Assembly (NCBI RefSeq): GCF_026914265.1
Contig: NC_069133.1
Span: 26,732,272-26,796,271 of the forward strand
From: Mya arenaria
Taxonomy: Eukaryota; Mollusca; Bivalvia; Myida; Myidae
DNA: 64,000 nucleotides
Direction: 5' to 3'
Shown here: positions 739-52,500 of the stretch, piece by piece
Layout: the number at the start of each line of letters is the position of its first letter
How positions within the stretch are numbered: the first letter of the stretch is position 1
Made by a program: the position numbers and the translations under genes
Notes under the pieces: model-generated
The model's input: the letters and a program-made list of their open reading frames with translations, nothing else
Database searches by the model: none
What the model was told of the DNA's origin: nothing

Positions 739-3700
739 AGTTAGTTATCGGTACCTGCTCATGTTCGGAACTGGTGTTTTCGTGATTTCGGCTTCAAGTA
801 CGTCACTTTATAAAGTTATATACTCACTTAACACTTTTAGAAAATACAAACAAATAATTATATTGATTTTCTCATGAAGTCATCATTTAAGGCAATCGAT
901 ACCACTACATTAAAAGTATTATTGGATTTTCAGTGCTGGGAGCCAGCCAGACGTTCACGCCGCTACTCATCGGGCGGGCCGTACAGGGAGTCGGGTCCGC
1001 CGCCACCACAATATCAGGTATGTTTATTAATTAGACAAAAAGTTCATGTTTTCGATCTTCATATTCGCATCTTTTGCAATGTTAGTTTTTTCGACATTTT
1101 CTAAAACAGTGTTCATTTTCGAGTCAACACAATCTAACCATTTTATATATAAAATAGTGCTTTACCGCCAAATATATTATTTAATGTTTAGCATGACCAA
1201 ATTTACAAAATTGTTTTGAAAAACAATTCTTTGCCAACATAAATCTGTGATTTAGTCCATTTTGTATTTAAAATAGTGATTTACCCTGATATATAATATT
1301 TAATGATTATCATAACTAAATTTACAAATTGATTAAAAACCCAGTTCGTTGCCAACATAAATATGTGAGTGAGTGCCGTAAACGATTTGTTTCTGTTGTC
1401 TGTTGCCACCAGGTATGAGCATGTTGGCGGAATATTTCTCCGAGGACGAGAGGAGAAGCCAGGCTATGGGGCTCGCCATGGGAGGGTGTGCCCTGGGCAT
1501 TCTAGGTACGCAACCTTAGTAGTAATATTAATAGAGATGTCAAACACAGTCCATTACGTGCTAGATTGCAAATATCAGATTCAACAAAAGATATTGAAAT
1601 TTTTCACAGTATAGTCGAACCCCGTTGGCTCGATCTATCAGGGACAGGCAAAAACACCTCGAGCAAAACGAAAATGCTTATAGCTTCAGTGAAAAATAAT
1701 CGGACCTTAACGACATTGTTTTCAGTGAGCTATCCGTTCGGATCCAGTACGCGCTGTCGGAGACGACCCTGTTCATCGTCGGCATCGCCCCGCCAGCATT
1801 TCTTTAGATTCGGATTGATGTAAAATTATAGTGCTTTCTTTATATCTGACCTTGACCTTGCTTTTAGTGGGCTATCCGTTCGGCGGGCTCCTGTACGCGC
1901 TGTCGGGGAAGACTCTGCCATTCGTCGGCATCGCCCTTCTCGCTTTCCTTAGTCTAGGTTGGTATTGTATCTATTATTATCTGGGACTAAACGGACCCTG
2001 GCTTAAAACTGTCAAGCATTTTAAACATTTTGACGTCATCAATTCATATAGTTGACAAGAATTTCACAGTTAAGGACGCTTTTACAGGAGAGCAATTGCT
2101 GTATTTTCCCTCTAAATAGATCATGACTACTACATTTGCAGTTCATTTAAGACAGCTTGGTTTTAAATATTTGTAATTAATAAGAGACATTATTATATTA
2201 TATTAGTTTAGGCTCTTTCGCTTACTGTGCCTTGTATTCATCATATTATTGTCTGCAGGTCTTCAGTATGAGCTCTTCCAAAAGATCGAAAGCACAGGAA
2301 AGGTACACAAACTCTTTGTATGCCCCCGAAGGTGGGCATATTAAAATCGCACCGTCCGTCCGTCCGTCCGTGCAAGACCCGTGCCCCTACCTCAAAGGTC
2401 AAGGTCACACTTAGTGTTTATTCACAATGGAGTGCTGCATATAGGACATAGAGTATAGGTTGTCGTGTCCCGGCTGTAACTTTCCCTTGTATGGACAGAT
2501 TTTAAAATGACTTGCCACATGTGTTCCACATACCAAGACGACGTGTCGCGTGCAAGACCCGTGCCCCTACCTCAAAGGTCAAGGTCACACTTAGTCTTTA
2601 TTCACAATGGAGTGCTGCATATAGGACATAGAGTATAGGTTGTCGTGTCCGGGCTGTTACTTTCCCATGTATAGACAGATTTTAAAATAACTTGCCACAT
2701 GTGTTCCACATACCAAGACGACGTGTCGCGTGCAAGACCCGTGCCCCTACCTCAAAGGTCAAGGTCACACTTAGTGTTTATTCACAATGGAGTGCTGCAT
2801 ATAGGACATAGAGTATAGGTTGTCGTGTCCGGGCTGTAACTTTCCCTTGTATGGACAGATTTTAAAATAACTTGCCACATGTGTTCCACATACCAAGACG
2901 ACGTGTCGCGTGCAAGACCCGTGCCCCTACCTCAAAGGTCAAGGTCACACTTAGTCTTTATTCACAATGGAGTGCTGCATATAGGACATAGAGTATAGGT
3001 TGTCGTGTCCGGGCTGTTACTTTCCCATGTATAGACAGATTTTAAAATAACTTGCCACATGTGTTCCACATACCAAGACGACGTGTCGCGTGCAAGACCC
3101 GTGCCCCTACCTCAAAGGTCAAGGTCACACTTAGTCTTTATTCACAATGGAGTGCTGCATATAGGACATAGAGTATAGGTTGTCGTGTCCGGGCTGTTAC
3201 TTTCCCATGTATAGACAGATTTTAAAATAACTTGCCACATGTGTTCCACATACCAAGACGACGTGTCGCGTGCAAGACCCGTGCCCCTACCTCAAAGGTC
3301 AAGGTCACACTTAGTGTTTATTCACAATGGAGTGCTGCATATAGGACATAGAGTATAGGTTGTCGTGTCCGGGCTGTAACTTTCCCTTGTATGGACAGAT
3401 TTTAAAATAACTTGCCACATGTGTTCCACATACCAAGACGACGTGTCGCGTGCAAGACCCGTGCCCCTACCTCAAAGGTCAAGGTCACACTTAGTCTTTA
3501 TTCACAATGGAGTGCTGCATATAGGACATAGAGTATAGGTTGTCCTGTCCGGGCTGTTACTTTCCCATGTATAGACAGATTTTAAAATAACTTGCCACAT
3601 GTGTTCCATATACCAAGACGACGTGTCGCGTGCAAGACCCGTGCCCCTACCTCAAAGGTCAAGGTCACACTTAGTGTTTATTCACAATGGAGTGCTGCAT

Positions 3701-6700
3701 ATAGGACATAGAGTATAGGTTGTCGTGTCCGGGCTGTAACTTTCCCTTGTATGGACAGATTTTAAAATAACTTGCCACATGTGTTCCACATACCAAGACG
3801 ACGTGTCGCGTGCAAGACCCGTGCCCCTACCTCAAAGGTCAAGGTCACACTTAGTGTTTATTCACAATGGAGTGCTGCATATAGGACATAGAGTATAGGT
3901 TGTCGTGTCCGGGCTGTAACTTTCCCTTGTATGGACAGATTTTAAAATAACTTGCCACATGTGTTCCACATACCAAGACGACGTGTCGCGTGCAAGACCC
4001 GTGCCCCTACCTCAAAGGTCAAGGTCACACTTAGTCTTTATTCACAATGGAGTGCTGCATATAGGACATAGAGTATAGGTTGTCGTGTCCGGGCTGTTAC
4101 TTTCCCATGTATAGACAGATTTTAAAATAACTTGCCACATGTGTTCCACATACCAAGACGACGTGTCGCGTGCAAGACCCGTGTCCCTACCTCAAAGGTC
4201 AAGGTCACACTTAGTCTTTATTCACAATGGACTGCTGCATATAGGACATAGAGTATAGGTTGTCGTGTCCGGGCTGTAACTTTCCCTTGTATGGACAGAT
4301 TTTAAAATAACTTGCCACATGTGTTCCACATACCAAGACGACGTGTCGCGTGTAAGACCCGTGCCCCTACCTCAAAGGTCAAGGTCACACTTTGGTGTTT
4401 ATTCACAATGGAGTGCTGCATATATAAGAACATAACAGTGTCGGTTGTCAACTATGGGTGATATTTTTTATGTTTAGAGGCAATTTAAAATAACTTTCCA
4501 TATGTATTTGAAAGGCAAGATCAACTTTTCATGTACTGACCTTGTTCATAGGTCAATGTCACAATCGGGGGCATTCGTCACATACTGTGACAGCTCTTGT
4601 TTATTTATGAAACAAATCGGAAACATAAGTATTGTCTTTAACGCTAAAAATGGATGCGCATGTGTCGATTCGTCCCGTTTTGTCTCAGACACCAGAACGC
4701 CAAGACAAACTGCAGAACGCGAAGCCGACATTTTTCGTGTCGTTTTCTCTCGGGCAAATGTGATATTAAAATTATATTTTCGTTCTGTCCATCCTATTGC
4801 TGAGTGTCACGGTATGTTGCAGGTCGAGACTGGGTCCTCCTCGTTACTGACGCTTCTCTGGGATCCTTACATTGTTCTCTGTGCAGGTATGGGTCTATGG
4901 TTCTTTCTGTAGGACTTTACAAAATTAGCAAAAATACTAATAATATTATTTACTTCATTTTTTCCCCACTAAGACATAGCAAAAATGGTTGTTTCCGCTT
5001 TACCGACCCTATTTGTTGCACCCGACCCTTATATTTCTACATTTTCTATTGCCAGCAAATATAAGCTTTAATTTATTTTCTCCGTTTGGTATACATTTTC
5101 GGAAGTAGTTTCTTGCACGGGAAAGACACGAGAATAAACCAATACCTAATTGCGACTTTTGTTCGGTGTAAAAAATGATATTAATATTCAACTTTATTAA
5201 AATATATATATGAATAATTAAATATATCTACGCTAAACTTTTTGGCTTGTGAAATTGAAACCAATCCTTAATTTATTAGTATATTGATTATGATGTGGGT
5301 TGATCGAAGCTAACACAAATATCAAAACTACATCAACACTAGATATAAAATATAAATATACAAACTCTCCAAATTCCGTTGCTCCTTTAATGTTTCCCAG
5401 GAGTGATAATGTTGACGTCCATGTCGTTGGCGGTGCTGGAGTCCACAGTGCCCCTCTGGGTCATGGGCACAATGGACGCCAAACAGTGGCAGCTAGGTAC
5501 GTCGGAACTTTCGATGTTTACATTCCATTTATGCAAACTATGTTTGAAAAATGTGTTCACTAAATTTTGCATTCAGGAAAGTAAATCTTGATGCACAAAA
5601 AAAGACCAAATGTATACGTGCCCGTTCAAGCAATCAACACTCCTCGGCCATTTTCCATCGATTGTAACCGCGGATGTATACCGGTACGTCAGTAGAAGTA
5701 GTTCGTAAAATTATAAATAAAAGTATTACATGTTATTAATTGTAGTGTTTTAACGTGTTTTTTTTGCATTAATAAGTTTAAATCGATTGCCGGTGAAGAG
5801 TATCATTGCATATCAATCAAGATTACTTTTTTAGAGTTAAGTCAGTTGAAGAGTTGAACTTCTAAATTAAAATTACGACGCGGTCTACTTGCAGCGTATT
5901 TAAATGTTAAGATTTCTGCCATTGTAATTCGTCCATATACATCCGAGGCTGTTTTCGCTGGTAAATGACCGAGGAGTTCCGAATGCCGTTCAAGAAGTGT
6001 GACACAACCTACTCACTGTTTGAACTGGTACATGGATGAATGGGCTACTTTTTGTGCACAACGTCATCCAGGTTTTGTGTACATTGTACACGTTTAGAAT
6101 GGCGTGCACAAAAACACGCGGAAAGCGAATTATGCGACTATCAACGAGCCTAAGTTTAAATTGACATTTGGCAAACGACTTTTAAATTCAACTCCAACTT
6201 TAACATGCAAGTGAAGCTGTCATATAAGTGAACACACACGTCTTGTTTGGAAACCTCTTGAACGTCTTTGTACACCCACTTGAAGTTGCAACCTTTGTAC
6301 ACCCACTGCGTGGTTCTCCCGCTGCGGCAGTTTAATTGTCCATTTTGAAACTGTTTGCTTGGCAATATTATTTTAAAGTGTATTTTGAATTCATAATTTC
6401 CATCTCACGCACGGAAATTGTTGGCTTAATCAAGTATCGCTTATTTGTTCCAGGTCTGATATTCATTCCAGACAGCGTTGGCTATCTTGTTGGCACCAAT
6501 GTCTTTCCAGTTATCGCCAAAACCTACGGAAGGTGATGGAAATATTGTTTAGTGCCTTTTAAACTCTTGTTACAAGTATTGAAATCGTATTCGTATGACC
6601 TAAATAAACAAACTGATTTAGTCATCTTCTTAAATAAACTTAATTTATGCACTTTCATTAAATGTCATTGTTCTTTGGCTCAAAATTTGAATACTTAAAG

Positions 6701-17900: not shown

Positions 17901-19263
17901 GAAGAAAAGTGATAACAGTAGAAAGAAAAAGAAAATCAATGATGATGATTACATTCCTTACAAATACACGTACCCTAAGCCACCTAAAAAACCTAAAACC
18001 CCTAGAAAAGACAAGGAATCAAAACCTCCAAAACCTAAAGTTCGAAAAAAAGACCCAAATAAAGGACGTGGAAGATTTCCATGTCAGTTTTGTAATAAGG
18101 TATACACCTTTAAGCGTGTTTTCGATGGCCATTTTATCAAAGAAGGAACTTCATGCATGAATGTTTGCACATATTGTGGGAAAATCTATGGACCAAAATT
18201 CATTAAAAGGCATATTTTCTATCGTCACGAGAGGGATTTAGAGATCAAAATTAAGTGCGAAACTTGTGGTCGAAACTTTATGGGAACACATGATCTTAAA
18301 CAGCACATGGAAATACACAGTTTAAAGCAACATGTATGCCATATTTGTGGCGCCATGTTTAAGAACCACTTGTCTTCTTACAGTCATATGAAAAGGCATG
18401 AAGGCGAAAAATTAGGCCTCAAACATACCTGCCCAATTTGCAATAAAACATTCACATGCCAGTACTACCTTAAATCTCATATCAGTGTTACTCATAACAA
18501 TGAGCAATATCACATTTGTGATATATGTGGCTCCACCTTAAAGTCTAAAGCATCCTTGAAAACACATATAACATGTTTCCATGGTAACCAAAGAAAGTAC
18601 AAGTGTACTGTGTGTGGCAAATCCTACAAGTATTCCCACCAAGTCTCAACTCATAAGAAAATGTACCATGATAAAGTGAAACGATTCCATTGTAAGGAGT
18701 GCGGTAAATCGTTTTATTTTGATAACCAGTACAAGGATCATTTGAACATTCACCTTGGACTGAAGCCGCACAAGTGTGGGTATTGTCCGTGCGTGTTTGC
18801 AACCAGAGAGCAAAGGACCCAACACAGAAGAAAACACAGGGGAACACATCAGATTGGTGCTAGCCTTAACGGTGGGAAATCTAAAATGGGGAGTAACTCC
18901 AGGTTTGTCCTAGAAATGGGAAATGACTCTATGCATGCCCAAGAAATGGGGAATAACTCCTTGGATGCTCTTGAAATGGGGAATAACTCTAGGTCTGCCT
19001 TAGAAATGGGGAATAACTCTGTGTCTGCCCTTGAAATGGGGAATAACTCCAGGGATGCCAGTCAAAACATTGAAGGTGATACCGCCGATAACTTTGCCCA
19101 GAACTATGAACCATCAGATACAGAATGCACCATCCAAGACGTGGGTAGTTATGTGTCATTCCAGGACCCACAGTATGAGGCAGTCTTGGCACTAAATTCT
19201 CAAGTGTCCCCGAAAGTTCAAGTAGAGTTTCTCTATCCAGAAAAGGGGGCCAAATCACCTTGA
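14904..19263 (+). CDS. C2H2 zinc-finger protein, nine fingers
   Basis: Exons 14904-15000, 16069-16170 and 17222-19263 join in phase (1, 1) to about 746 residues. ATG 14904 lies seven bases after an acceptor-like TTTTGTCAG, so an upstream exon is possible. The order is an N-terminal part without a recognised domain, an acidic region rich in (N/D)IED repeats, a lysine/proline-rich basic stretch, then nine fingers from CQFC to the last HRRKH. Fingers 2-9 are C2H2 (CTYC, CETC, CHIC, CPIC, CDIC, CTVC, CKEC, CGYC); finger 1 ends in Cys rather than His. Linkers are mostly not the TGEKP type. After the fingers comes a 10-residue repeat (LEMGNNSxxA, about six copies), then an acidic tail. Reading through the intron from an ATG at 17140 is possible but less likely, since a strong acceptor precedes 17222. 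It is probably a nuclear DNA-binding protein; its targets are unknown. Confidence 0.85.
15660..15830 (+). repeat. dispersed repeat with GGGCTTG phrases
   Basis: It shares order and wording with about 37850-38285 (CACAAGCCCGCAAGCCCTGC versus CACAATCCTGCAAGTCCTGC, then two GGCTTGTT-type blocks). The copy at 37.9 kb is interrupted by a pogo-like MITE and this one is not. It lies in intron 1 of the zinc-finger gene. Confidence 0.5.
16320..17035 (+). mobile_element. SINE family 2 fragment, split by a TTAA element
   Basis: The parts about 16370-16442 (GTATCAGTGCTTTACACTGAGC) and 16933-17035 (AAGAACCAAGAGGTCTCTT, AAGAGCTAGGGTA, TCTTGTA) align in order with the SINE body at about 28560-28690. Bases 16443-16932 between them are absent there. 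The SINE is therefore older than the element inside it. It lies in intron 2 of the zinc-finger gene. Confidence 0.65.
16447..16928 (+). mobile_element. TTAA-flanked element, family C, with an internal tRNA-like segment
   Basis: It is bordered by TTAA at 16443-16446 and 16929-16932, with inverted ends AGGGACT and AGTCCCT. Bases about 16723-16800 look like a tRNA promoter: a box-A-like TAGCACAGTGGATACGG and a box-B-like GGTTCAAAAC at normal spacing. A partial relative lies at 37623-37830. It has no protein coding capacity. Confidence 0.65.
18880..19060 (+). repeat. 30-bp coding minisatellite in the zinc-finger gene
   Basis: About six in-frame 30-base units encode LEMGNNSxxA-type repeats. The first half of each unit (GAAATGGGGAATAACTC) is nearly identical between copies while the codons for the two variable residues differ. 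The array lies between the last zinc finger and the acidic C-terminal tail. Confidence 0.9.
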
Positions 19264-34600: not shown

Positions 34601-37600
34601 ATGTGTTTAAACACTGAAATATATAATAAAACACTCTTTTTATATTCGTGCAGAATGGGAAAAAGGTAGACAGACTGGATGGGGCGAATGCGGCTGAGCT
34701 GACAAAGAAGGTTAAACTGCTTGGCTCACAGACTGGGGTTGATGTGCCCCAAATTCCAGACGCACCAAAAGAGGTATGATTGTACTACACTATGTGACAA
34801 TAGGCTGATTGCTCAGAACTTTGTAAAAACTGCACTCTCTCAGATTTACCATTTTTACAACTTTTTTATTTTTTATCTTGGAAAGAGAATATTTTTGCTT
34901 AAATAATTAATATCTGCAAACCAATAATAAAAGACTGCTGACAAAAGATCAGATCGCAGAAGTTCATATTTCCGTTCGAAAATTAATGTTTTTGGCTTAA
35001 AATGTTACTAACGGTTTAAGAAAAATGCATAAAACATCAATTTTAAATATAAAAATCTGTGATCTACTTTTTTGTCAGCAGTCATATATATATCTGGTTT
35101 CCATGGATTTTCGCAAAAATTGGCTCGTTTCAAGACAAAAAATAAAAAAAAAGTTGTCAAAATGCTCAAGCTGTGAGAGTGCAGCTGTAAAGGTAACAAC
35201 ATTGTTAACATCATTGGTGTTTACTTGTGAATCTTGACTGCTCTGGAAGTTTAATGGATACACTATAAGATATGAGACAACTGTTTGAGCTTTTCTTGTT
35301 TTATTTAAACAGAAAAGATAGATGAATACATCATCAATTATATCTTTTTAAATGTCAATAAAGATCTCGTTAATGATTAAATCATGTTGTTAACTTTGAC
35401 AATGTTCTGAACTATCAGCCCAATGTCTTGGTCGTTTAATGAAATTGTATGCCAAAGCTGAGATATAAACAATGCCATGTTTGATGCCATAATGTGGCCA
35501 CCATAAAAAAATAGTTTGGTAAGTTTTTCCAAAAGTACCCATTTAGGTGTAAAAATAAATTATTTTGTTTTCAACTAAAGAGTACCACCTTATGTTTTCC
35601 TCCTGATCCTTCACTATTTTTAGTGTATATTTTTTCTTGGTAATTTCTTAAAAAATCAGCATTGGTTGAGTGATCATGTTAAAATTTGACCATTTTATAT
35701 TTATTTTTTGCTACAACAGCTACCCTGATATAGGTATTACCACATTAACTGCCATTCTAAACAGCATTCTAAATCATTTGCATTTTTTTTTAATTCTTTA
35801 AATTTATGAAAACTCAGGTATTCAAAAAACATTGTAAAATTTAGTGATAATGAAAAAACATGTTAATTTTAGATTTTTGATTCAAGAACATGTTCTTTAA
35901 TGTAGAAAGAAATGTCACATTAAATGTTTGCTGAATTGAATTGATTCTCCTTCAGGACCTGAATGCTAAGCTGAAGAGATTGATCAATGCTGAAGATGTC
36001 ATGTTATTCATGAAGGGCATTCCAGCTGAACCAAGATGCGGTATGAGCTTGTATTTAGAATTCATTGCTCAATGCTTTAAAGCTGCTTTCCCGCAGACCG
36101 CTTGTTTTGATAACTTTTTTATGATTTTTTTTTTCGAATTTCCGGGTAGCTCATTTTGGCATACCTTTAAGTAACTTAAATTCAGTCATATAAGATAACT
36201 CACTTTAGAACAGATCTCAATTCTTTAATAAACTGCCGAAAATTTCACTTTTCATAAAGCTTTAGGAATGCTTTAAGTCATGAAACATCAATTTTTGAAC
36301 ATAAAGATCAAAAACTGTTAGCTCATTCATAGGCAAAACGATCAATCTGTGAGAATGAAGCTTTAACATGCCTCGTGTGAAGCAGTGATAGATGGGATAC
36401 TAGTCTCCTGGATTAATACCAGTGAGACAGTCTCCAAACTGCTCTGTTTAACCCTTATATTTTTAAACATCTTTTTGAATGACATGGCCTGGTATTGAAC
36501 ATGCAACCTAATGCAGTTGAATATCACCCAAATCTTATTAATAAAGTTCTATCAAATTCTGTAAACTTTGTTAAGATAATTATGATTATTACAAGTATAA
36601 TAAGGTATTCATATGTATGGTTTTTTTAAAAAAAATACACAAATTAACTTGGGTGTGTACGCTTACGGGGGTATTTATACTCGCACTCGGGTCTTGCCAG
36701 ATAAGACTAATAGTCATTTAAGGTAAGCACAGACAGAATGTAACCCTGGTTAGAGATACCCTGGGGCAGTGATTACGAACAGTCTCAAGTCTGAGTTCAG
36801 ACTCAAAACACATTATTGCAAAACTTCATTTCATTGTAATTTTCCTTTTATCAGAGCATTGATAGTAAAATTTGCTGAAAGATATTGCTATTTGAATATT
36901 TTACTAAAATTTACCTATTTTTGTAAAAGAAATGAATTAAATATGATTTTTTCTTCCTTTAAAAAAAATGCTTTTCTGAGGCTGAGTCTAGACTTGAGAG
37001 TGTTCATAATCACGGCCCCTGGTTCTTGGACGTGCACCAGTGTATAGCACTGTCACACAGGACGCCCATTTAACACCCATTTAACATCTCGCCCGGAAGA
37101 CGATAAGTATTTTTTAGTGGTGTGGTGGGGAATTGAACCTGTGACTCCTGGATTGACAGTCAAGTTTGTAACCTATAGACCACGAAACCGCTACAAATTG
37201 ATTTATGTTACCATCTTTTATTGAGCATTAATAGTCAAAGGGAAGTAATCCTGTTTAATATATCATAAGTGGTTTTGATGCCTTCCCTTGACACAGCATA
37301 TCTTGTATTTGTTTCATGTTGTGTAAAATGGTTTCTTTTGGACTGCGGCCTTATGTCACCAATGAAACAAATGACCGGACTTGTTCTCTACATTTTCAAT
37401 AAACAAAATCTATACTTTAATATGAATGCATCTTTGGCTTTGTTTTTGTAGGATTCAGTAAGCAGATCATACAGATCTTGAATGAAAACAATGTCAAGTA
37501 CGGCTCCTTCAACATTCTAGCTGATGAAGAAGTTAGACAAGGTTTGTATGTTTACATATACATTACAAGGTCTTAACTATATTGGCTCTGTTTGTTATGC

Positions 37601-40600
37601 TTCAAAATGATGTATTTAAATCTTAAAGGGGCTAGACACCAGATGATACAATTGCAAGAAAAAAAGAAAATTGTCAAAAACTTACATGAAATTGACATCT
37701 TTGTGTACGACACATTGAATCGTACTTACTGATGTATGACATTGCTTACAACACATGCGTCTTTCGCAGTTTATGCTCATTTTTCCAATTCAAAATTTAC
37801 CAGGGTTGTCTACCAGGTAAACTTGTTCACTTTCATTAGCTAAACTGGATGCAATATGCACAATCCTGCAAGTCCTGCTCTGGCAATGTGCTTTCCTTGT
37901 TTGCTCAACTACTGGATTTTTCAGTTAAACTGCAATTATTCGAACAGGTGGTCATTTGAAAACTGTTTTTTTTACATATTCACGTTTAGTAATTGGGAGC
38001 CTTAGAACATACGAGGAATTTTCGCAACGCAATACATGACTGGTGCTGAAGTATACAATTGGTATGACACCTCCAAATTTAAAAAAACAACATTATGAGA
38101 CTTTTCATAACAGACTAAATTGGAAACTTGGGTCGTGAAAAAAATCGGATAACTCAAGGTATCAACTCGGGTCCCAGTGTCCTCAAGGGATTGCAGTTTT
38201 ATTTATAAAGCGAGGCTTGTTTATATTTGTATTCCAAGCATTTATATTAGAATTCAGACTTGTTTATCCAAAGACTTTTGGGATGTACGTAAGTAAAGAT
38301 AATAAATGTTAATGGAACTAGAGTAAACCGAGGTTGTGGGTTTGATCTATGTGATTGGATTTCCAACAATGAGATATAGGTACTGGTATGTAAAAGTGTC
38401 TATTTCATGTAGAAAGTCAAGTCAAATATAGAAGCTAAAGTAGTGTCTGCATTTACTCTGTCTATGTAAAACAAACAATCTTGGACGTCCTCTTAAATCA
38501 GTTAAAAATGTAAAAAAAAATCTTCATACATAGAAAATGTCTTAATGCTTTAGTAAAAAAGTAAATGAGTATGTAAGAAGTTAACTCATAAAGATGTTTG
38601 TAAGTGAGTGGCATATTTGATATAAATCATATGTTTTCTACCCTGTATTTTGTATATCGTACAGGCCTGAAGACATTCTCTAACTGGCCAACGTACCCGC
38701 AACTGTACAGCAAGGGGGAGTTACTTGGCGGACTAGATATCGTCAAGGAGCTGGCTGAGAGTGGCGAACTAAAGTTGCAGCTACCGCAGCAACAGTCACT
38801 TGATGACAGGTGGGTTGGGTAACCTGACAACAGGTGGATTGGGGGTCCTTGGGTGATGGTGTGTTTGAGGTGATTTGTTGACAAGTGGGTGGGGTAACAC
38901 CACAACCGGCATGTTGGTGTTTTTTTTAATGTGCTGACACTTTCTTTTGTCTTTAAGCTATTGTGTTCAGAATAAGCCTTAAACACACTGATTACTTGAT
39001 ACCAAAAAAATGTTTCAGCCTCATAAATCGTATGTTCCATACCTATTACATACAAGGTCGAAGGGCCTCATAAACCAGGCCCCTGTGATGTTATTCATGC
39101 AGGTAGATTAGACCATTCCTTAATCATATGTCAACATTACATAATATACCCTTTATATGCCAAGAGGAAGGACCTCATCAACCATGTGCCAGTGATGTTC
39201 ATGAAGGAAGACAGGGCCGCTCCTCGATGTGGCCCCTGTAAACAATACTTTATATTTATATCTGTAAAGTACTGGGTTGAAGGCCTCATCAACAAGGCAC
39301 TTGTGGTGAATTCATGAAGGGAGAGAGAACTCCACCACAATATGGCCTCTGTCAACAGAACTTAATAATCATATCTGTTATAAACCAGGTTGACATGCCT
39401 CACCAACCAGGCCTCAGTGATTTTGTTCATGTGACCCCTGTCAACAGTACTTAATATTCATATTTGTTATATACCAGGTTGAAGGGCCTCACCAACCAGG
39501 CGCCAGTGTTGTTGTTCATGTGACCCCTGTCAACAGTACTTAATATTCATATTTGTTATATACCAGGTTGAAGGGCCTCACCAACCAGGCGCCAGTGTTG
39601 TTGTTCATGTGACCCCTGTCAACAGGACTTAATATTCATATTTGTTATATACCAGGTTGAAGGGCCTCACCAACCAGGCGCCAGTGATGTTGTTCATGTG
39701 ACCCCTGTGAACAGTACTTAATATTCATATTTGTTATATACCAGGTTGAAGGGCCTCACCAACCAGGCGCCAGTGATGTTGTTCATGTGACCCCTGTCAA
39801 CAGTACTTAATATTCATATTTGTTATATACCAGGTTGAAGGGCCTCACCAACCAGGCCTCAGTGATGTTGTTCATGTGACCCCTGTCAACAGTACTTCAT
39901 ATTCATAGTTGTTATATGCTAGGAGGAAGGGACTCATTAACCAGGCCTCAGTGATGTTGTTCAAGAACTGCACCACATTGTAGATTCAGTAAACAGTAAT
40001 TAATATTCATATCTGTTCTATACCAGGTTGAAGGGCCTCATCAACCAAGCTCCAGTGATGTTGTTTATGAAGGGAGACCGGGCCGCACCTAGATGTGGTT
40101 TCAGCAAACAGACCATTGCCATATTGAATGAATCAGGGTATAACACTTACAGATAGATAATACAATTTTGACATTCAATGCTTGAATTTCAATACATATT
40201 TACAAAATAAGACTCCACTGTCTAAATACTACAGCTTTTGACATTCAATGCTAAGACTCCACTGTCTAATTACAGCTTTTGACATTCAATACTTAGACTC
40301 CAATATCTCAATTGACATACATTGCTTAGATTCCACTGTCTGTTTACAACTGTCACATTCAATGATTAGATTCCACTGTCAAATTACAACTGTGACATTC
40401 AATTATTAGATTCCACTGTCTAATTACAACTGTGACATTCAATGCTTAGATTCCACTGTCTAATTACAACTGTGACATTCAATGCTTAGATTCCACTGTC
40501 TAATTACAACTGTGACATACAATGCTTAGATTCCACTGTCTGTTTACAACTGTCACATTCAATGATTAGATTCCACTGTCAAATTACAACTGTGACATTC

Positions 40601-42335
40601 AATTATTAGATTCCACTGTCAAATTACAACTGTGACATTCAATTATTAGATTCCACTGTCTAATTACAACTGTGACATTCAATGCTAAGATTCCACTGTC
40701 TAATTACAACTGTGACATTCAATGCTTAGATTCCACTGTCTAATTACAACTGTGACATTCAATGCTAAGATTCCACTGTCTAATTACATTTTTTACATTC
40801 AATTCTAAGATTCCACCATCTTATTAGAGTTTTTGACATTCAATGCTAGGAGATAACGGTTTAATTAGGACTTTTGACATTCAATGCTGAAACTCAATTA
40901 CAATTTTGACATTCAATGGTTAGATTATACAGTCTAATTTCAAATTTTATATTCAATGCTAAGATTCCACTGCCTTATTACAACTTTGACATTCATGCAT
41001 AGATACCACAAACACTTTTAATTTTTAAAACATTCAATGCTTAGATTCCACTGTCTATTTACACTTTTGACATTCTATGCATAGAAACTTATTTTGTTTA
41101 CAGTGTAGAGTACAGCACATTTGACATACTGGGAGATGATGAAGTACGCCAAGGCCTGAAGACTTTCTCCAACTGGCCCACATATCCCCAGTTGTATGTG
41201 AAGGGGGAGCTGGTCGGGGGGCTGGATATTATCAAGGTATGAATGTTTTCATTCTAGATTAAAGGTTCCTCTTCTGAATGCATAGCATGACAGACACACA
41301 GGGTTTACTATATCCTTCTCTGAAGTTTTGTCAGCTATCATCTGCTATCAGTGTTGGTATTTAATGGTTTGCTGTTGCTATCTTCAAGCTACACTTCTGC
41401 TGGGCATAAAACATCTTAAGTCATTTTCAAACTTATGTAATTTTCCTATATTAAGTATCTTGCTCAACATTTGAAAACCCTTATACTTTTATTTTGATTT
41501 GACCAAGAATATAGTTGAAATCAAATGAAGTTAACTTTTGATTTTTTTAATACCACCCCTGTGCTTAAACTTCTTTGTATTTTGAGGATGGCATATTCTT
41601 TCCTGCAATGTGAAATTCTTTACAAACCTTTTTAACACTTAAGTTTTGCATTATACCCCCAATTAGGAGTTGAACAAGTCTGTTATAAACGTCACAAAAT
41701 CTTGTGTCACAGTTAGCTGCATAATTTTGCACTTACTCTCCTGAAACTTTACAGTATTGTTTATTAGTATGGGAAGTTGGGCACCAGATATTTGTGTGGC
41801 ATTTCACTTGGTCCAGCCGTCTAAAAATTGTTCTGGCCCTTGAGATAGCGAAAAATGGTCAGAAATTCCTGTGTCAAATATTGCACCAAAGCAAGAGTAT
41901 TGCACTAACACTCATGAAACTTTGGTCAGCATGTGGAAATTGTGTATCAGCAATTTTTGTGACATGGTCTTACAATAGTTATGGCCATTTACATAGTAAA
42001 AATTGGTCAGAAAAATATTGTGGTGCATTAACTCCAAATGGTTTGCAACTACACTCATGAAACTTTATAGATTTGTTGGTCAACAGTGGAATTTGGGCAT
42101 GTGCAATTTGTGTGACATTTTGCGTGGTCTTATAAGAGTTATGACCCTTGACTTGATCAAAATGATATTTAAACAGTATTCTATTTTTTGAAAATAAAAT
42201 CCATGAAAATGGTTCGTAGCTTATTTTCAGATAAAGTTTACAAAACACAAGAGTTACCCAAATATGTTTATCTATCTATTCCAGGAACTGCAAGAGTCAA
42301 AAGAATTAGTGAACATTCTGAAGAACGGACAATGA
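31669..42335 (+). CDS. GLRX3: glutaredoxin-3 (PICOT), complete, ten exons
   Basis: Exons 31669-31733, 32646-32760, 33512-33586, 34654-34773, 35956-36040, 37452-37541, 38665-38809, 40027-40137, 41104-41236 and 42285-42335 join in phase to 329 residues; human GLRX3 has 335. The order is an N-terminal thioredoxin-like domain with [19 protein letters not shown] and the cis-proline region [11 protein letters not shown], then two monothiol glutaredoxin domains. Each has MLFMKG, a CGFS active site (the first split by the intron at 36041-37451), [21 protein letters not shown] or its close variant, and GELxGGLDI(V/I)KEL. The family handles [2Fe-2S] clusters, partners BOLA2 and acts in the cytosol and nucleus in cytosolic iron-sulphur assembly. 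All active-site cysteines are present. Introns hold many MITEs, two SINE copies, and an array of decayed copies of exon 8 just before that exon. Confidence 0.97.
33097..33449 (+). mobile_element. TTAA-flanked MITE, family A (copy 5)
   Basis: TTAAAGCTGCTTTCTCACAG at the left, GTGAGAGTGCAGCTTTAA at the right. It lies in GLRX3 intron 2 and ends about 60 bases before exon 3. Confidence 0.8.
33757..33930 (-). mobile_element. tRNA-derived SINE, family 1, 3' part
   Basis: Read on the minus strand it gives the family 1 body and tail (CACTGGCGCACGTTAAAGAA, GGTAGCTCTAACCAG, TAAATAAGCTTACA). The tRNA-like head is missing. It lies in GLRX3 intron 3. Confidence 0.7.
34821..35190 (+). mobile_element. TTAA-type MITE, family A (copy 6)
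   Basis: Left ACTGCACTCTCTCAGATTTA, right CTGTGAGAGTGCAGCTGTAA, with a well-kept interior. The outer TTAA is eroded on both sides. It lies in GLRX3 intron 4. Confidence 0.8.
36077..36366 (+). mobile_element. TTAA-flanked MITE, family A (copy 7, diverged)
   Basis: Left TTTAAAGCTGCTTTCCCGCA, right ATCTGTGAGAATGAAGCTTT. The interior is shortened. It lies in GLRX3 intron 5, 37 bases after exon 5. Confidence 0.7.
36657..37195 (-). mobile_element. tRNA-derived SINE, family 1, split by a MITE
   Basis: On the minus strand the tRNA-like head (near 37195) and the body (GTGGTCTATAGG, CACTAAAAAATACT, ACGTCCAAGAACCAG) are followed, after an interruption at 36765-37017, by the rest of the body and tail near 36660. 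It lies in GLRX3 intron 6. Confidence 0.7.
36765..37017 (+). mobile_element. MITE with 5-bp target duplication, nested in a SINE
   Basis: The ends GGCAGTGATTACGAACAGTC and TGTTCATAATCACGGCC are inverted repeats, continuing inward with CTCAAGTCTGAGTTCAGACTC and GAGTCTAGACTTGAG. CCTGG is repeated at both borders (36760-36764 and 37018-37022). Uninterrupted SINE copies at 26.1 and 61.1 kb show the empty site. The superfamily is unknown. Confidence 0.75.
37623..37830 (+). mobile_element. TTAA-type element, family C, left part only
   Basis: TTAAAGGGGCTAGACACCAG and the next 200 bases match the left third of the element at 16447-16928 (GAAAATTGTCAAAAACTTACATG, TTTCGCAGTTT, GTCTACCAGG). The tRNA-like part and the right end are missing. 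Confidence 0.65.
37850..38285 (+). repeat. dispersed repeat interrupted by a pogo-like MITE
   Basis: The outer parts match the uninterrupted copy at 15660-15830. The inner part, 37921-38203, starts CAGTTAAACTGCAATTATTC and ends TTGCAGTTTTAT and resembles the MITE at 9747-10403 in several inner blocks (TTCGCAACGCAATACATGAC, AACTCGGGTCCC). It lies in GLRX3 intron 6. Confidence 0.6.
39052..40020 (+). pseudogene. tandem array of decayed GLRX3 exon-8 copies (89-bp period)
   Basis: About ten copies precede the real exon at 40027-40137. The five best (starting near 39475, 39564, 39653, 39742 and 39831) are 89 bases apart and nearly identical. Each begins with an acceptor-like ATACCAG, then GTTGAAGGGCCTCACCAACC and CAGTGWTGTTGTTCATG, then TGA in the exon frame, then a remnant of the exon's CGFS-side text (ACCCCTGTCAACAG) and ACTTAATATTCATATTTG. 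Older copies at about 39052, 39160 and 39270 keep more of the exon; the one at 39160 is still open as [19 protein letters not shown]. This exon has become a minisatellite inside its own gene. Confidence 0.88.
40150..41095 (+). repeat. 40-bp minisatellite in GLRX3 intron 8
   Basis: Units of about 40 bases read GACATTCAATGCTTAGATTC then CACTGTCTAATTACAACTGT. Roughly 20 copies are present, most regular between 40330 and 40780, with degenerate units at both ends. A 180-base block (40321-40500) recurs at 40501-40680, showing higher-order duplication. The array ends just before exon 9 at 41104. Confidence 0.9.
41750..42165 (+). repeat. degenerate tandem repeat of about 150 bp, three units
   Basis: Blocks such as CACTCATGAAACTTT, TTTGTGTGACATTT, TGGTCTTA and GAGTTATGACCCTTGACTTG recur in order at about 150-base spacing. 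It lies in the last intron of GLRX3. Confidence 0.5.
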
Positions 42336-43176: not shown

Positions 43177-44977
43177 ATTATGCCCCCCTTCGAAGAAGAG
43201 GGGTATATTGCTTTGCACAGGCATGTCGGTCGGTCGGTCGGTCGGTTGGTCGGTCCGTCGGTAGACCAAAGCTTGTCCGAGTGATAACTCAACAATTCCT
43301 AGACGTATGGTCACCAAACTTCACATGAAGGTTGGGCCTGACCAGTAGATGACCCCTATTGATTTTGGGGGTCATCGGGTCAAAGGTCAAGGTCACAGTG
43401 ACCTTTAATGGTAAAATAATTTTAAAGCTTGTCCGAGTGATAACTCAAGAATGCCTGCACCCATGGCCCTCAAACTTGACATGGAGGTTGGGCCTGACCA
43501 GTAGATGACCCCTATTGTTTTTGGGGGTCATCAGACCAAAGGTCAAGGTCACAGTGACCTTGAATGGTAAAAGGTTGTCCGAGTGATAACGTGACAATGC
43601 CTGCACCCATGGCCCTCAAACTTGACTTGGAGGTTGGGCCTGACCAGTAGATGACCCCTATTGTTTTTGGGGGTCATTGGGCCAAAGGTCAAGGTCACAG
43701 TGACCTTGAATGGTAAAAGGTTGTCCGATTGATAACTCAACAATGCCTGCACCCATGGCCCTCAAACTTGACTTGGAGAATTGGCCTGACCAGGAGATGA
43801 CCCCTATGGTTTTTGGGGGTCATCTGGCCAAAGGTTAAGGTCACAGTGACCTGGAATGGTAAAAGGTTGTCCGAGTGATAACTCGATAATGCCTGCACCC
43901 ATGGCCCTCAAATTTGACTTGGAGGTTGGGCCTGGCCAGAAGATGGTCCCTATTGATTTAAGGGGTCATTGGGCCAAAGGTCAAGGTCACAGTGACCTGG
44001 AATGGTAAAAGGTTATCCGAGTGATAACTTGACAATGGCTGCACCCATGGCCCTCAAACTTGATTTGTAGGTTGAACCCGGCCAGAAGATTGTCCCTATT
44101 AATTTTAGGGGTCATTGGGCCAAAGGTCAAGGTCACAGTGACCTTGAATGATAAAAGGTTGTCCAAGTGATAACTCAACAATGCCTGCACCCATGGCCCT
44201 CAAACTTGATATGGAGGTTGGGCCTGACCAGTAGATGACCCCTATTGATTTTAGGCGTCAAAGGTCAAGGTCACAGTGACCTTGAAAGCAAACTCGACAA
44301 TTCTTGGACCTATGGTCATCAAACTTGACATGAAGGTTGGGCCTGCCCAGTAGATGACCCCTATCGACTTTGGGGGTCATCAGGCCAAGGTCAATGTCAC
44401 AGTAACCTTTAACGCAAAAAAGTTAACAAATCTTCCCCCACTGATATCTCAACAATGCCTGAACCTATTATCATTAAACTTGACATGGATGTTAAGCCTG
44501 ACCAGTTGATTCATAGAGCCACAGGTCAAGGTCACAGTGATCTTGAATGGTAAAAGGTTGTCCGAGTGATAACTCAACAATGCCTGAACCCATGGCCTTC
44601 AAACTTGACTTGGAGTTGCATCTGACTTGTAGATGACCCCTTATGATTTAAGGGGTCATCGGGTCAAATTTCAAGGTCACAGTGACCTTGAACGAAAAAA
44701 ACTTGTCTTGTGATAACTTGACAATGCCTGCACCCATGGCCCTCAAACTTGACATTTAGGTTTCTGGTGACCAGCTGCTGACTCTGGATTTTGAGTTCAT
44801 AGAGTCAAAGGTCATGACGGTCATAACACACTTTATCCTCACACTTTAATGGTCATAATCTTAAAACAGCAACAAATCAGCTGTCATTTCAGTCCATGCA
44901 TATTTCATTCAATTGTCCATATAATCCTGACAACATGGCGCTCAGGGGGGCATAATGTTTGACAAACATCTCTTGTT
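43177..44977 (+). mobile_element. Helentron/Pearl-like element with a tandem core of about 11 units
   Basis: The left end is ATTATGCCCCCCTT with a hairpin to GAGGGGTATA, then a GTCGGTCGGTCGGTCGG tract. The right end is an inverted AGGGGGGCATAAT and CTCTTGTT. The core units are about 147 bases: TGTCCGAGTGATAACTCAAC, CACCCATGGCCCTCAAACTT, AGTAGATGACCCCTATTG and CAAAGGTCAAGGTCACAGTG. The build is the same as the element at 2316-4602 with a different core. No coding capacity is present. Confidence 0.65.
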
Positions 44978-46535: not shown

Positions 46536-49500
46536 ATGGAAACCAGCGGAGTAAATTACGTGTTTAAGTGTGTCATTGTCGGGGACAGCCATGTGGGGAA
46601 GACCACCCTGCTAGGGCGGTACATGGGTGAACCCTCTACTTCCGGAAGGGTCAGCCCCGCCTCTGTGTCCAGGCAGCCATTTGTCCAGAAACTGGTCCAC
46701 ACACGTGGCGGGAAAACGGTCGAGTTGAAGATATACGACACTCTGGGTAAATAGCTATCCATAAATCACTCATATACATGTCTTTGAGGCACTCCCTCAA
46801 TAAATTGTTAAAGCTGCACTCTCACAGATGTATCGTTTTGACAACTTTTTTATTTTTTGTCTTGGAAACAGCAAATGTTTGCGTAAATATCTGCAAACCA
46901 ATGATAAAATATTGCTGACAAAAGATCAGATTTGTTACTAACGGTTTAAGAAGAATCCCTAAATCATAAATTTTGGAACTTAAATACAAACATCTGCGAT
47001 CTATTTTATGTCAGCAGTCTTATGTTAATGTTTTCCATGCATTTTTTGCCAAATTTGGCTCGTTCCAAGAAAAAAAAAGAAAAAAAGTTTTCAAAACGTA
47101 CAATCTGTGAGAGTGCAGCTTTAACAATTTCTTGTCCGCAAAGATTCACTTTGAGCGTATTGTATTATTTTTATTTCGATATGGACTTCACAAGTTAACA
47201 TTCCCCTCCATATAACCGCTTGTGAAAATTTCAGGTAGGTTTTGCGCTGGTACTTTTGATTTTATGCATTTGCGGAGAACGTTTTGTAGTTCGTTCCCAT
47301 ATACAACGAATTCGCGCCGTTATTGCATCTTATTCATCGACTTTTCATGCGGACATCTGTACTGTTACCTCATAAATCATAATTTCCTGATGTTAACTGA
47401 TAGTCATGTTAATTTTATGAATAAACATGTTTGTTTACTAGCAGGAATTTTACCTACAGTTGATTGGCGAAAACGACAACGAGTGATTATTTAAGAAATA
47501 ACTTAAAAATAATCTTTCATAATCTTAGGATATCGCGAGGTAAAATTCTACCAACGCTATCTATTTCACATGTCCATATCACACCTCAGCTTGAAATTTT
47601 TGTTAATGTTATATACATATAGGCTGTTCCTTATTGTAACTTGATGTGTGACTTTTTTATCACATGAATACCATGTACCCGGCTTTATAAAACCTTGTAC
47701 AAAACACGTGTCATTAATTATGTGTAACTTTGCTTTATTCACATTGGTAAAAATATATTGTCACTCTGATTGACTATGATCAATTGGTTCACATGTGAGT
47801 TTAAAGCACTTAAGCACTTAAGAAACCCTAATTGGCTAACGGTGTTTTGCGGTTTTATAACTTATATAAGTATTAAGAAACCCTAATTGGCTAACGGTGT
47901 TTTGCGGTGTTATAACTTGTATAAGTATTAAGAAACCCTTATTGGCTAACGGTGTTTTGCGGTGTTATAACTTATATAAGTATTAAGAAACCCTAATTGG
48001 CTAACGGTGTTTTGCGGTGTTATAACTTATATAAGTATTAAGAAACCCTAATTGGCTAACGGTGTTTTGGGGTGTTATAAGTATTAAGAAACCCTATTTG
48101 GTTAACGGTGTTTTGCGGTGTTATAAGTATTAAGAAACCCAATTTGGTTAACGGTGTTTTGCGGGTTTATAAGTATTCAGAAACACTATTTGGTTAACGG
48201 TGTTTTGCGGGTTTATAAGTATTCAGAAACACTATTTGGTTAACGGTGTTTTGCGGTGTTATAAGTATTCAGAAACACTATTTGGTTAAAGGTGTTTTGC
48301 GGTGTTATAAGTATTCAGAAACACTATTTGGTTAACGGTGTTTTGCGGGTTTATAAGTATTCAGAAACACTATTTGGTTAATGGTGTTTTGCGGGTTTAT
48401 AAGTATTCAGAAACACTATTTGGTTAACGGTGTTTTGCGGGTTTATAAGTATTCAGAAACACTATTTGGTTAACGGTGTTTTGCGGGTTTATAAGTATTC
48501 AGAAACACTATTTGGTTAACGGTGTTTTGCGGTGTTATAGCTCTTAAAAACTCCATTTGACTAAAGGTGTTTTGCGGTGTTATAGCTCTAAAGAAACCCT
48601 ATTTGGTAAACGTTGTTTTGCGGGTTTAAAAGTATTAAGAAACCCTATTTGGTTAACGGTGTTTTGCGGTGTTATAAGTAATGAGAAACCCTATTTGGTT
48701 AACGGTGTTTTGCGGTGTTATAAGTATTAAGAAACCCTATTTGGTTAACGGTGTTTTTCGGGTTTATAAGTATTAGGAAACCCAATTTGGTTAACGGTGT
48801 TTTGCGGTGTTATAAGTAATGAGAAACTCTATTTGGTTAACTGTGTTTTGTGGTGTTATAGCTCTAAAGAAACCCTATTTGGTTAACGGTGTTTTGCGGG
48901 TTTAGAGCACGTAAGAATCCCTATTTGGTTAACGGTGGTTTGTGGGTTTAGAGCAGTAAGAATCCCTATTTGGTTAACGGTGTTTTGTGGGTTTAGAGCA
49001 CGTAAGATTCCCTATTTGGTTAACGGTGTTTTGCGGGTTTAGAGCACGTAAGAATCCCTATTTGGTAAACGGTGTTTTGCGGGTTTAGAGCACGTAAGAA
49101 TCCCTATTCGGTTAACGGTGTTTTGTGGGTTTAGAGCACGTAAGAATCCCTATTTGGTTAACGGTATTTTGCGGGTTTATAGCTCTAAAGAAACCGTATT
49201 TGGTTAACGGTGTTTTGCGGTGTTATAGCTCTAAAGAAACCCTATTTGGTTAACGGTATTTTGCGGGTTTATACCTCTAAAGAAACCCTATTTGGTTAAC
49301 GGTGTTTTGCGGTGTTATAGCTCTAAAGAAACCCTATTTGATTAACGGTATTTTGCGGTGTTATACCTCTAAAGAAACCCTATTTGATTAACGGTGTTTT
49401 GCGGTGTTATAGCTCTAAAGAAACCCTATTTGGTTAACGGTGTTTTGCGGGTTTATAGCTCTAAAGAAACCGTATTTGGTTAACGGTGTTTTGCGGTGCT

Positions 49501-52500
49501 ATAGCTCTAAAGAAACGCTATTTGGGTCACGGTATTTTGCGGGTTTATAGCTCTAAAGAAACCCTATTTGGTTAACGGTGTTTTGCGGTGTTATAGCTCT
49601 AAAGAAACCGTATTTGGTTAACGGTATTTTGCGGGTTTATACCTCTAAAGAAACTCTATTTGGTTAACGGTGTTTTGCGGGTTTATAGCTCTAAAGAAAC
49701 CCTATTTGGTAAACGGTGTTTTGCGGTGTTATACCTCTAAAGAAACCCTATTTGGATAAGGGTGTTTTGCAGGTTTATAAGTATTCAGAAACACTATTTG
49801 GTTAACGGTGTTTTGCGGTGTTATAGCTCTTAAAAAACTCCATTTGGCTAAAGGTGTTTTGCGGTGTTATAGCTCTAAAGAAACCCTATTTGGCAAACGT
49901 TGTTTTGCGGGTTTATAAGTATTAAGAAACCCTATTTGGTTAACGGTGTTTTGCGGTGTTATAAGTAATGAGAAACCCTATTTGGTTAACGGTGTTTTGC
50001 GGTGTTATAAGTATTAAGAAACCCTATTTGGTTAACGGTGTTTTTCGGGTTTATAAGTATTAGGAAACCCAATTTGGTTAACGGTGTTTTGCGGTGTTAT
50101 AAGTAATGAGAAACCCTATTTGGTTAACGGTGTTTTGCGGTGTTATAAGTATTAAGAAACCCTATTTGGTTAACGGTGTTTTTCGGGTTTATAAGTATTA
50201 GGAAACCCAATTTGGTTAACGGTGTTTTGCGGTGTTATAAGAAATAAGAAACTCTATTTGGTTAACGGTGTTTTGTGGTGTTATAGCTCTAAAGAAACCC
50301 TATTTGGTTAACGGTGTTTTGCGGGTTTAGAGCACGTAAGAATCCCTATTTGGTTAACGGTGTTTTGTGGGTTTAGAGCAGTAAGAATCCCTATTTGGTT
50401 AACGGTGTTTTGTGGGTTTAGAGCACGTAAGAATCCCTATTTGGTTAACGGTGTTTTGCGGGTTTAGAGCACGTAAGAATCCCTATTTGGTGAACGGTGT
50501 TTTGCGGGTTTAGAGCACGTAAGAATCCCTATTTGGTTAACGGTGTTTTGAGGGTTTAGAGCACGTAAGAATCCCTATTTGGTTAACGGTATTTTGCGGG
50601 TTTATAGCTCTAAAGAAACCGTATTTGGTTAACGGTGTTTTGCGGTGTTATAGTTCTAAGAAACCCTATTTGGTTAACGGTGTTTTGCGGGTTTATAGCT
50701 CTAAAGAAACCCTATTTGGCTCACGGTGTTTTGCGGGTTTATAGCTCTAAATAAACCCTATTTGGTTAACGGTGTTTTGCGGTGTTATAGCTCTAAAGAA
50801 ACCCTATTTGGTTAACGGTAATTTGCGGGTTTATAGCTCTGAAGAAACCCTATTTGGTTAACGGTGTTTTGCGGTGTTATAGCCTTAAAGAAACCCTATT
50901 TGTTTCACGGTGTTTTGCGGGTTAATATCTCTAAAGAAACTCTATTTGGCTCACGGTGTTTTGCGGGTTTATAGCTCTAAAAAACCCTATTTGGTTAACG
51001 GTGTTTTGCGGGCTTATACCTCTAAAGAAACCCTATTTGGTTAACGGTGTTTGCGGCGTTATAGCTCTAAAGAAACCCTATTTGGTTAACGGTGTTTTGC
51101 GGTGTTGTAGCCTTAAAGGAACCCGATTTGGCTTACGGTGTTTTGCGGGTTTATAGCTTTAAAGACACCCTATTTGGTTAACGGTGTTTTGCGGTGTTAT
51201 AGCCTTAAAGAAACCCTATTTGGTTCACGGTGTTTTGCGGGTTAATATCTCTAAAGAAACCCTATTTGGCTCACGGTGTTTTACGGGTTTATAGCTCTAA
51301 ATAAATCCTATTTGGTTTACGGTGTTTTGCGGGTTTATAGCTCTAAAGAAACCCTATTTGGTTAACGGTGTTTTGCGGTGTTATAGCCTCAAAGAAACCC
51401 TATTTGACTCACGGTGTTTTGCGGGTTTATAGCTCTAAAGAAACCCTATTTGGTTAACGGTGTTTTGCGGTGTTATAGCCTTAATGAAACCCTATTTGGC
51501 TCACGGTGTTTTGCGGTGTTATAGCTCTAATGAAACCCTATTTGGCTCACGGCGATTTCCAGGTTTATACCTCTAAAGAAACCCTATTTGGCTCACGGTA
51601 TTTTGCGGGTTTATAGCACGTTATAAACCCTATTTGGCTCACGGTGTTTTGCGGTGTTATAGCCTTAAAGAAACCCTATTCGGTTCACGGTGTTTTGCAG
51701 GTTAATATCTCTAAAGAAACCCTATTTGGCTTACGGTGTTTTGCGGGTTTATAGCTCTAAAGAAACCCTATTTGGTTAACGGTGTTTTGCGGTGTTGTAG
51801 CCTTAAAGGAACCCGATTTGGCTTACGGTGTTTTGCGGGTTTATAGCTCTAAAGACACCCTATTTGGTTAACGATGTTTTGCGGTATTATAGCCTTAAAG
51901 AAACCCTATTTGGTTCACGGTGTTTTGCGGGTTAATATCTCTAAAGAAACCCTATTTGGCTCACGGTGTTTTGCGGATTTATAGCTCTAAAGAAATCCTA
52001 TTTGGTTTACGGTGTTTTGCGGGTTTATAGCTTTAAAGAAACCCTATTTGGTTAACGGTATTTTGCGGTGTTATAGCCTCAAAGAAACCCTATTTAGCTC
52101 ACGGTGTTTTGCGGGTTTATAGCTCTAAAGAAACCCTATTTGATTAACGGTGTTTTGCGGTGTTATAGCCTTAAAGAAACCCTATTTGGCTCACGGTCTT
52201 TTGCGGTGTTATAGCTCTAAAGAAACCCTATTTGGCTCACGGCGTTTTACAGGTTTATACCTTTTAAGAAACCCTATTTGGCTCACGGTATTTTGCGGGT
52301 TTATAGCACGTAATAAACCCTATTTGGCTCACGGTGTTTTGCGGTGTTATAGCCTTAAAGAAACCCTATTCGGTTCACGGTGTTTTGCAGGTTAATATCT
52401 CTAAAGAAACCCTATTTGGCTCACGGTGTTTTGCGGGTTTATAGCACGTAAGAAACCCTATTTTGCGGTATTATAGCACTAAAATACATTTTGCGGGCTA

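Follow-up and report, generated by a model that had tools for sequence, protein, structure and literature searches.

A minisatellite of decayed exon 8 acceptor ends in intron 7 of the GLRX3 gene of the clam Mya arenaria

Decoy and poison exons are splice-site-like intronic sites that give rise to unproductive RNA, the decoy exon of OGT (PMC12017769) reportedly being an example. It is the presence of splice-site-like sequence within an intron that they have in common with the repeat array described here, which is located in the GLRX3 gene of the clam Mya arenaria, displays a single donor-like site by a crude rule and is known from sequence alone.

Tandem duplication across an intron–exon boundary has been described as a route to new introns (PMC4974935). 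In potato as in the clam, the duplicated piece reaches from an intron's 3′ end into the exon that follows, and comprises branch site, tract and acceptor; in potato, however, one duplication yielded a new intron making use of the donor of the upstream copy, whereas in the clam the existing intron absorbed the copies, whose number rose to ten. Internal tandem repeats of the minisatellite type are also found at the exon–intron boundaries of human duplicated genes (PMC2812944), where they alter the structure of the gene and are able to switch on cryptic splice sites. The clam array shares with them the minisatellite units at an exon–intron boundary, but the human repeats are described there as recent, variable between paralogs and supported by transcripts, whereas the clam array looks old and is documented by its DNA letters only. 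Finally, intronic copies of exons, either unannotated or degenerate, have been catalogued (PMC9013439, PMC12343006) and they resemble the clam case in that exon-like sequence is found through similarity in the neighbouring intron; in the clam, on the other hand, the acceptor-side part of the exon alone was copied and became a homogenised 89-base array.

The clam array is of a known kind, its distinguishing traits being the copy number, the acceptor-only unit and a two-step history of shrinking and spreading. Among the literature matches listed, no title or opening of an abstract describes an exon whose acceptor end is repeated ten times within the adjacent intron, a silence that is weak evidence of absence. 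The reading that we favor, with a probability of roughly 0.8, is that an old tandem duplication across the intron–exon boundary was amplified as a minisatellite that is normally bypassed and persists as a neutral fossil inside a functional gene.

The GLRX3 gene and the array in its intron 7

Nine GLRX3 exons spliced from the window (i.e., the whole 64,000-base stretch of DNA that was analysed) form an open frame of 313 residues, while a motif search gave no location for the last exon of the gene. The translation of exons 1–9 contains a PF00085 stretch and two PF00462 stretches, TIGR00365 (Grx4 family monothiol glutaredoxin) matches the spliced product twice and the best PDB match of the exon 7–8 part is glutaredoxin-3 (2yan). 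A thioredoxin domain and two CGFS glutaredoxin domains are thereby found in one gene, and GLRX3 architecture consists of Trx plus two monothiol Grx domains. Exon 8, for which the coordinates given in an earlier note on this DNA proved correct, is bordered by an AG/G acceptor and a GT donor (a slash marks the splice junction throughout) and an open frame connects it to exons 7 and 9. The relevant features, all on the + strand and numbered within the window, are the following.

38665-38809, + strand: GLRX3 exon 7, the upstream neighbour, with donor CAG/GTGGGT
38810-40026, + strand: GLRX3 intron 7, host of the array
39027-39133 (approximate), + strand: U1, an old degenerate copy; junction ACAAG/G, stop after 18 codons
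39134-39245 (approximate), + strand: U2, an old near-full copy; CCAAG with a one-base shift of the junction; counted from its AG, a stop follows after 10 codons
39246-39358 (approximate), + strand: U3, an old near-full copy; junction AG gone
39359-39447, + strand: U4, an 89-base unit with CCAG and TGA
39448-39536, + strand: U5, an 89-base unit with CCAG and TGA, identical to U6
39537-39625, + strand: U6, an 89-base unit with CCAG and TGA, identical to U5
39626-39714, + strand: U7, an 89-base unit with CCAG and TGA
39715-39803, + strand: U8, an 89-base unit with CCAG and TGA
39804-39892, + strand: U9, an 89-base unit with CCAG and TGA
39893-39996, + strand: U10, an old copy adjoining exon 8; CTAG, a separate 11-base deletion, TTCAGTAAACAG retained, stop after 20 codons
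39997-40026, + strand: working 3′ splice site of exon 8, equivalent to the intronic part (30 bases) of the unit; position −9 is C here but A in all ten copies
40027-40137, + strand: GLRX3 exon 8, from which the array derives; 111 nt long, opening the second glutaredoxin domain and containing its CGFS motif

Between 39027 and 39996, the acceptor end of exon 8 is thus repeated head to tail in ten decayed copies, the borders of U1–U3 being good to within a few bases. Tandem Repeats Finder (TRF) reports an 89-base array at 39349-39963 (6.9 copies, 94% matches), and a search of the window with a profile of the unit finds 11 places with E ≤ 2.7e-20, namely the ten copies (39029-39996) and exon 8. 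Since this profile was made from the same units that it then detected, a BLAST search with exon 8 and its 40-base flanks is the more independent line of support; it yields ten matches upstream of the exon, one per unit, with E values from 1.7e-28 to 9.6e-13; an eleventh match of this query is 17 bases long and lies in intron 8. Local alignment gave no signal of an additional copy to the left of U1 (p = 0.09 and 0.35). Identity to exon 8 amounts to 76–84% for U4–U10 and 66–71% for U1–U3, and U4–U9, each 89 bases long, are 87–100% identical among themselves, as befits a minisatellite. The claims of the earlier note that about ten decayed copies derived from exon 8 precede it in the intron and that most of them have a period of 89 bases are borne out by these data; the start of the array, placed there at 39052, has to be moved to about 39027–39029. 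The exon's homologue in the first glutaredoxin domain (35956-36040) was considered as a source and rejected, its match to the unit profile having E = 0.025.

Searches of the genome (1,216,080,610 bases in 18 contigs) at the DNA level, for which the exon and a single 89-base unit served as queries, carried out by skipping very common words and scoring the best candidates alone, returned matches at the GLRX3 locus only. That the array might be an artefact of the assembly appears extremely unlikely: apart from the identical U5 and U6, the copies carry distinct substitutions and indels, and a length of ~1 kb is within the reach of the PacBio reads of what we presume to be the source assembly (PMC10663159). 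A number of family matches occur in pairs of equal or nearly equal score 1–2 Mb apart on one contig (e.g., C2:68469080/C2:69988790 and C10:12125893/C10:13352927); these pairs may represent haplotypes kept twice in the assembly. GLRX3 exon 8 is found once.

Anatomy, age and drift of the copies

A full unit measures 115 bases, of which 30 are the end of the intron and 85 the beginning of exon 8, and it ends with AAACAG; the duplicated piece therefore straddles the boundary. For the last 26 bases of the exon and for its donor side, intron 7 offers no match at E ≤ 1, which indicates that it was the intron–exon boundary, and not the exon, that was duplicated. U4–U9 lack the 26 bases between the ATG at exon positions 41–43 and the ATG at 67–69, and 115 − 26 = 89 corresponds to the observed period; neither 115 nor 89 is a multiple of 3. 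U10 keeps TTCAGTAAACAG like the exon (TTCAGCAAACAG), whereas U2–U9 have CTGT preceding AACA. Of the earlier proposal that full exon duplications came first and a shortened unit spread afterwards, the shrinkage from 115 to 89 bases, the lost piece being delimited by an ATG on either side, and the subsequent spread are supported, but the starting point has to be replaced by the 30 + 85 bases of the boundary.

U5–U9 share 95–100% pairwise identity and U4 is 87–91% identical to these, while U1–U3 and U10 are 60–80% identical to each other unit. The branch lengths given by FastTree follow suit (U1 0.31, U2 0.17, U3 0.25, U10 0.22; U4 0.10, U5–U9 0–0.025, exon 8 0.06), although the supports of the deep nodes are weak (0.27–0.79), so that the order of the early events is not fixed by the tree. 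The young copies lie in the middle of the array and the old ones at both of its ends, U1–U3 on the left and U10 on the right; there is accordingly no ageing from left to right, and the suggestion that the long old copies are those at the left holds for U1–U3 but overlooks U10. An order with old ends and a young middle is expected for arrays homogenised by unequal exchange and for this reason unequal exchange, or replication slippage, is the most likely mechanism of the spread.

As the anatomy of the unit shows, the process began with the tandem duplication of the last 30 bases of intron 7 together with the first 85 of exon 8; further copies then arose, and one of them lost the 26 bases between the two ATGs. 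This shortened version of 89 bases went on to give the six copies of the mid-array, most likely through the exchange or slippage just mentioned. The copies are now intron sequence endowed with a 3′ splice-site module and early stops but devoid of the exon 8 donor, while exon 8 itself presumably stayed under purifying selection.

In a hand alignment there are seven columns in which no copy has the base of the exon, one in the intron (−9) and six in the exon (22, 25, 40, 53, 73 and 79), and all six exonic differences are silent in the exon frame. Since the silent share of the possible single changes is 21%, or 28% under a 4:1 transition weight, the chance of this outcome is 9e-5 or 4.5e-4, respectively. 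In an automatic alignment column 53, which is based on three copies and on a deletion placed by hand, drops out and column 73 is covered by three copies instead of the nine of the hand alignment; the remaining five of five columns are again silent, with a chance of 4.3e-4 to 1.6e-3. The silent character of these differences argues for continued selection on the exon during the drift of its copies; on the simplest polarity, the exon would have changed silently under selection and the copies would have retained the older base. Private changes of U1, U2, U3, U4 and U10, counted by codon position, amount to 8/122, 13/124 and 14/128 (p = 0.46) and reveal no bias, as would be expected of unconstrained copies. 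These private changes reach a somewhat higher density in the intronic portion of the unit (22/144) than in the exonic one (35/374; p = 0.06), an excess that a wholly neutral array would not predict and that may be an effect of the alignment.

These data also bear on the idea that the array is a decayed cluster of mutually exclusive variants of exon 8. U2 does retain a readable stretch of 27 residues in the exon frame, but such variants would each consist of a full exon with acceptor, open frame and donor, whereas here the 3′ end and donor of the exon are the very parts unmatched in intron 7 at E ≤ 1, the unit length of 115 is not divisible by 3, the private changes show no third-position bias and all nine copies that possess an AG at the junction meet an early stop, the tenth having no AG. 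We regard this origin as very unlikely.

Splicing potential of the copies

If the copies are a fossil, what is left of the splice site that they contain? The junction AG persists in 9 of the 10 copies, the first exon base behind it being 39057, 39165, 39389, 39478, 39567, 39656, 39745, 39834 or 39923, compared to 40027 at the true site; CCAG, attributed to each of them by the earlier note, is confined to the six copies U4–U9, the others having ACAAG (U1), CCAAG (U2), CTAG (U10) or no AG at all (U3). U5–U9 display branch-like yTnAy matches at −27 and −21 and an AG-free stretch of 28 bases, exactly like the true site; U4 has the match at −27 alone, and U10 has both but an AG-free stretch of 12 bases. 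Between −20 and −5 pyrimidines occupy 10 of 16 positions in U5–U9 (8–10 of 14–16 among the copies), compared to 11/16 at the true exon 8 site and 9–13/16 at the other GLRX3 acceptors (exons 2–7 and 9). With AG in nine copies, and yTnAy at −27 in U4–U10 as in the true site, the copies do not look plainly defunct as splice sites, a point that speaks against the fossil reading.

By a rule of at least 7 of 9 matches, which is crude since the true exon 8 donor itself scores 5/9, the array contains one donor-like site, CAG/GTAGAT at 39100 in U1, and none in U2–U10, compared to five sites in the stretch before the array, the true exon 7 donor among them. Recursive splicing at CCAG/GTTGAA was discarded in view of the fact that, by eye, GTTGAA agrees with GTRAGT at the GT only.

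When the nine copies having a junction AG are read in the phase of the exon, all run into a stop after 10–20 codons, so that splicing to them would, as had been predicted for the younger ones, truncate the product; the TGA ascribed to the younger copies is indeed found in the exon frame of 6 of the 10, U4–U9. The combination of acceptor and premature stop typical of a poison exon is accordingly at hand and might be taken to mean that the copies tune GLRX3 output as decoy acceptors or poison exons, through early stop and mRNA decay. To the nine AGs, the nine early stops and the pyrimidine counts given above one may add that the donor-like site of U1 could close a frame-shifting exon of 46 bases. 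Yet this site, the sole one to reach 7/9 in the array by a rule that gives 5/9 to a working donor, falls outside the young copies, and CCAG has been changed or lost in 4 of the 10 copies; moreover, since U4–U9 are one recent lineage, the CCAG common to them is no evidence of selection. A regulatory role of this type would seem quite improbable.

A non-adaptive leak can also be envisaged, whereby competition by the upstream acceptors would cause occasional skipping of exon 8 and yield a GLRX3 deprived of the CGFS motif of its second glutaredoxin domain. Several acceptors with the same sequence module do lie upstream and, exon 8 being 111 nt long, its skipping would preserve the frame; this leak is nevertheless purely a prediction, and an unlikely one. 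According to the fossil reading, the spliceosome would normally skip the copies by exon definition, because the true exon alone possesses an acceptor and a donor 111 bases apart, and at most a low level of mis-splicing would occur, ending in early stops.

A related idea concerns the lost 26 bases. These include a purine-rich piece (AAGGGAGACCGGG...) which, by resemblance to SR-protein motifs, we take to be a putative splicing enhancer, and spread might have been enabled only after the deletion had removed it and left the unit as a splice-silent acceptor: U2 and U3 would have kept the piece, stayed single and decayed, while the copy without it multiplied. The C of the true site at −9, where all ten copies have A, could then be a matching gain of strength. 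Such a dependence is quite improbable.

Controls and neighbouring repeats

To what extent is the array exceptional? Among 69 control loci (L015–L083), which correspond to fewer independent cases than this number suggests since they include GLRX3 exon 9 itself (L020) and form 50 clusters at 85% identity, eight have a single second match to the exon region within 1.5 kb and none has two or more, whereas GLRX3 exon 8 has ten upstream. The controls are the best-scoring matches to PF00462 (9 of 9), PF00271 (best 30 of 150) and PF00076 (best 30 of 128), and some lie within long open frames with no introns nearby; the same strand was searched over 1.5 kb on each side, and L001–L014 were excluded because they are the GLRX3 array itself. 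When the other eight GLRX3 exons are subjected to the same test, seven have no match and exon 7 has one. One control, an open frame for a helicase domain (L040, 1906-2032), is directly followed by a single, decayed duplicate of the 3′ portion of that frame (81% across an alignment of 145 columns).

Tandem arrays with a period of 10 or more occupy 10,683 of the 64,000 bases of the window (16.7%), so that non-coding DNA is often amplified here, in keeping with the fossil reading. In a region so rich in arrays, the amplification of an exon edge is no surprise as a type of event, even if it rarely befalls a given exon. Large arrays are present at 2369-4424 (180-base units), 43268-44762 (146-base units) and 47818-52463 (46-base units), and the consensus of a 30-base repeat at 18884-19059 contains CCAGGTATGCC, a donor- and acceptor-like string. 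A 40-base minisatellite at 40210-41085 fills most of GLRX3 intron 8, almost up to the exon 9 acceptor. It was rejected as a second exon-derived array: the match with the exon 9 query (p = 0.003) falls entirely in the intronic flank, where the array continues, and exon 8 gives p = 0.71.

Intron 7 also contains a donor-side counterpart of the acceptor array:

38819-38909, + strand: two decayed copies of the exon 7 end and donor (GACAG/GTGGGTTGGG), 24 and 75 bases downstream (whole region 38795-38909)

This duplication, three copies with the true one, is supported by 24/29 bases (p = 0.003, the minimum with 300 shuffles), but is given little weight since single matches of exon fragments are found in 8 of the 69 control loci.

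The copies seem to preserve older silent states of exon 8 and would thus represent an internal record of the purifying selection acting on it. Were the reading based on the 26-base deletion true, the array would show, as an experiment of nature, how an exon is distinguished from nearly perfect copies of itself. Should the spliceosome ignore the copies, the locus would offer a clean natural test in which a real exon is opposed to six copies having a similar branch-like site, CCAG and the first bases of the exon; should the copies be used, the GLRX3 output of the clam would depend on a repeat whose copy number is possibly changing.
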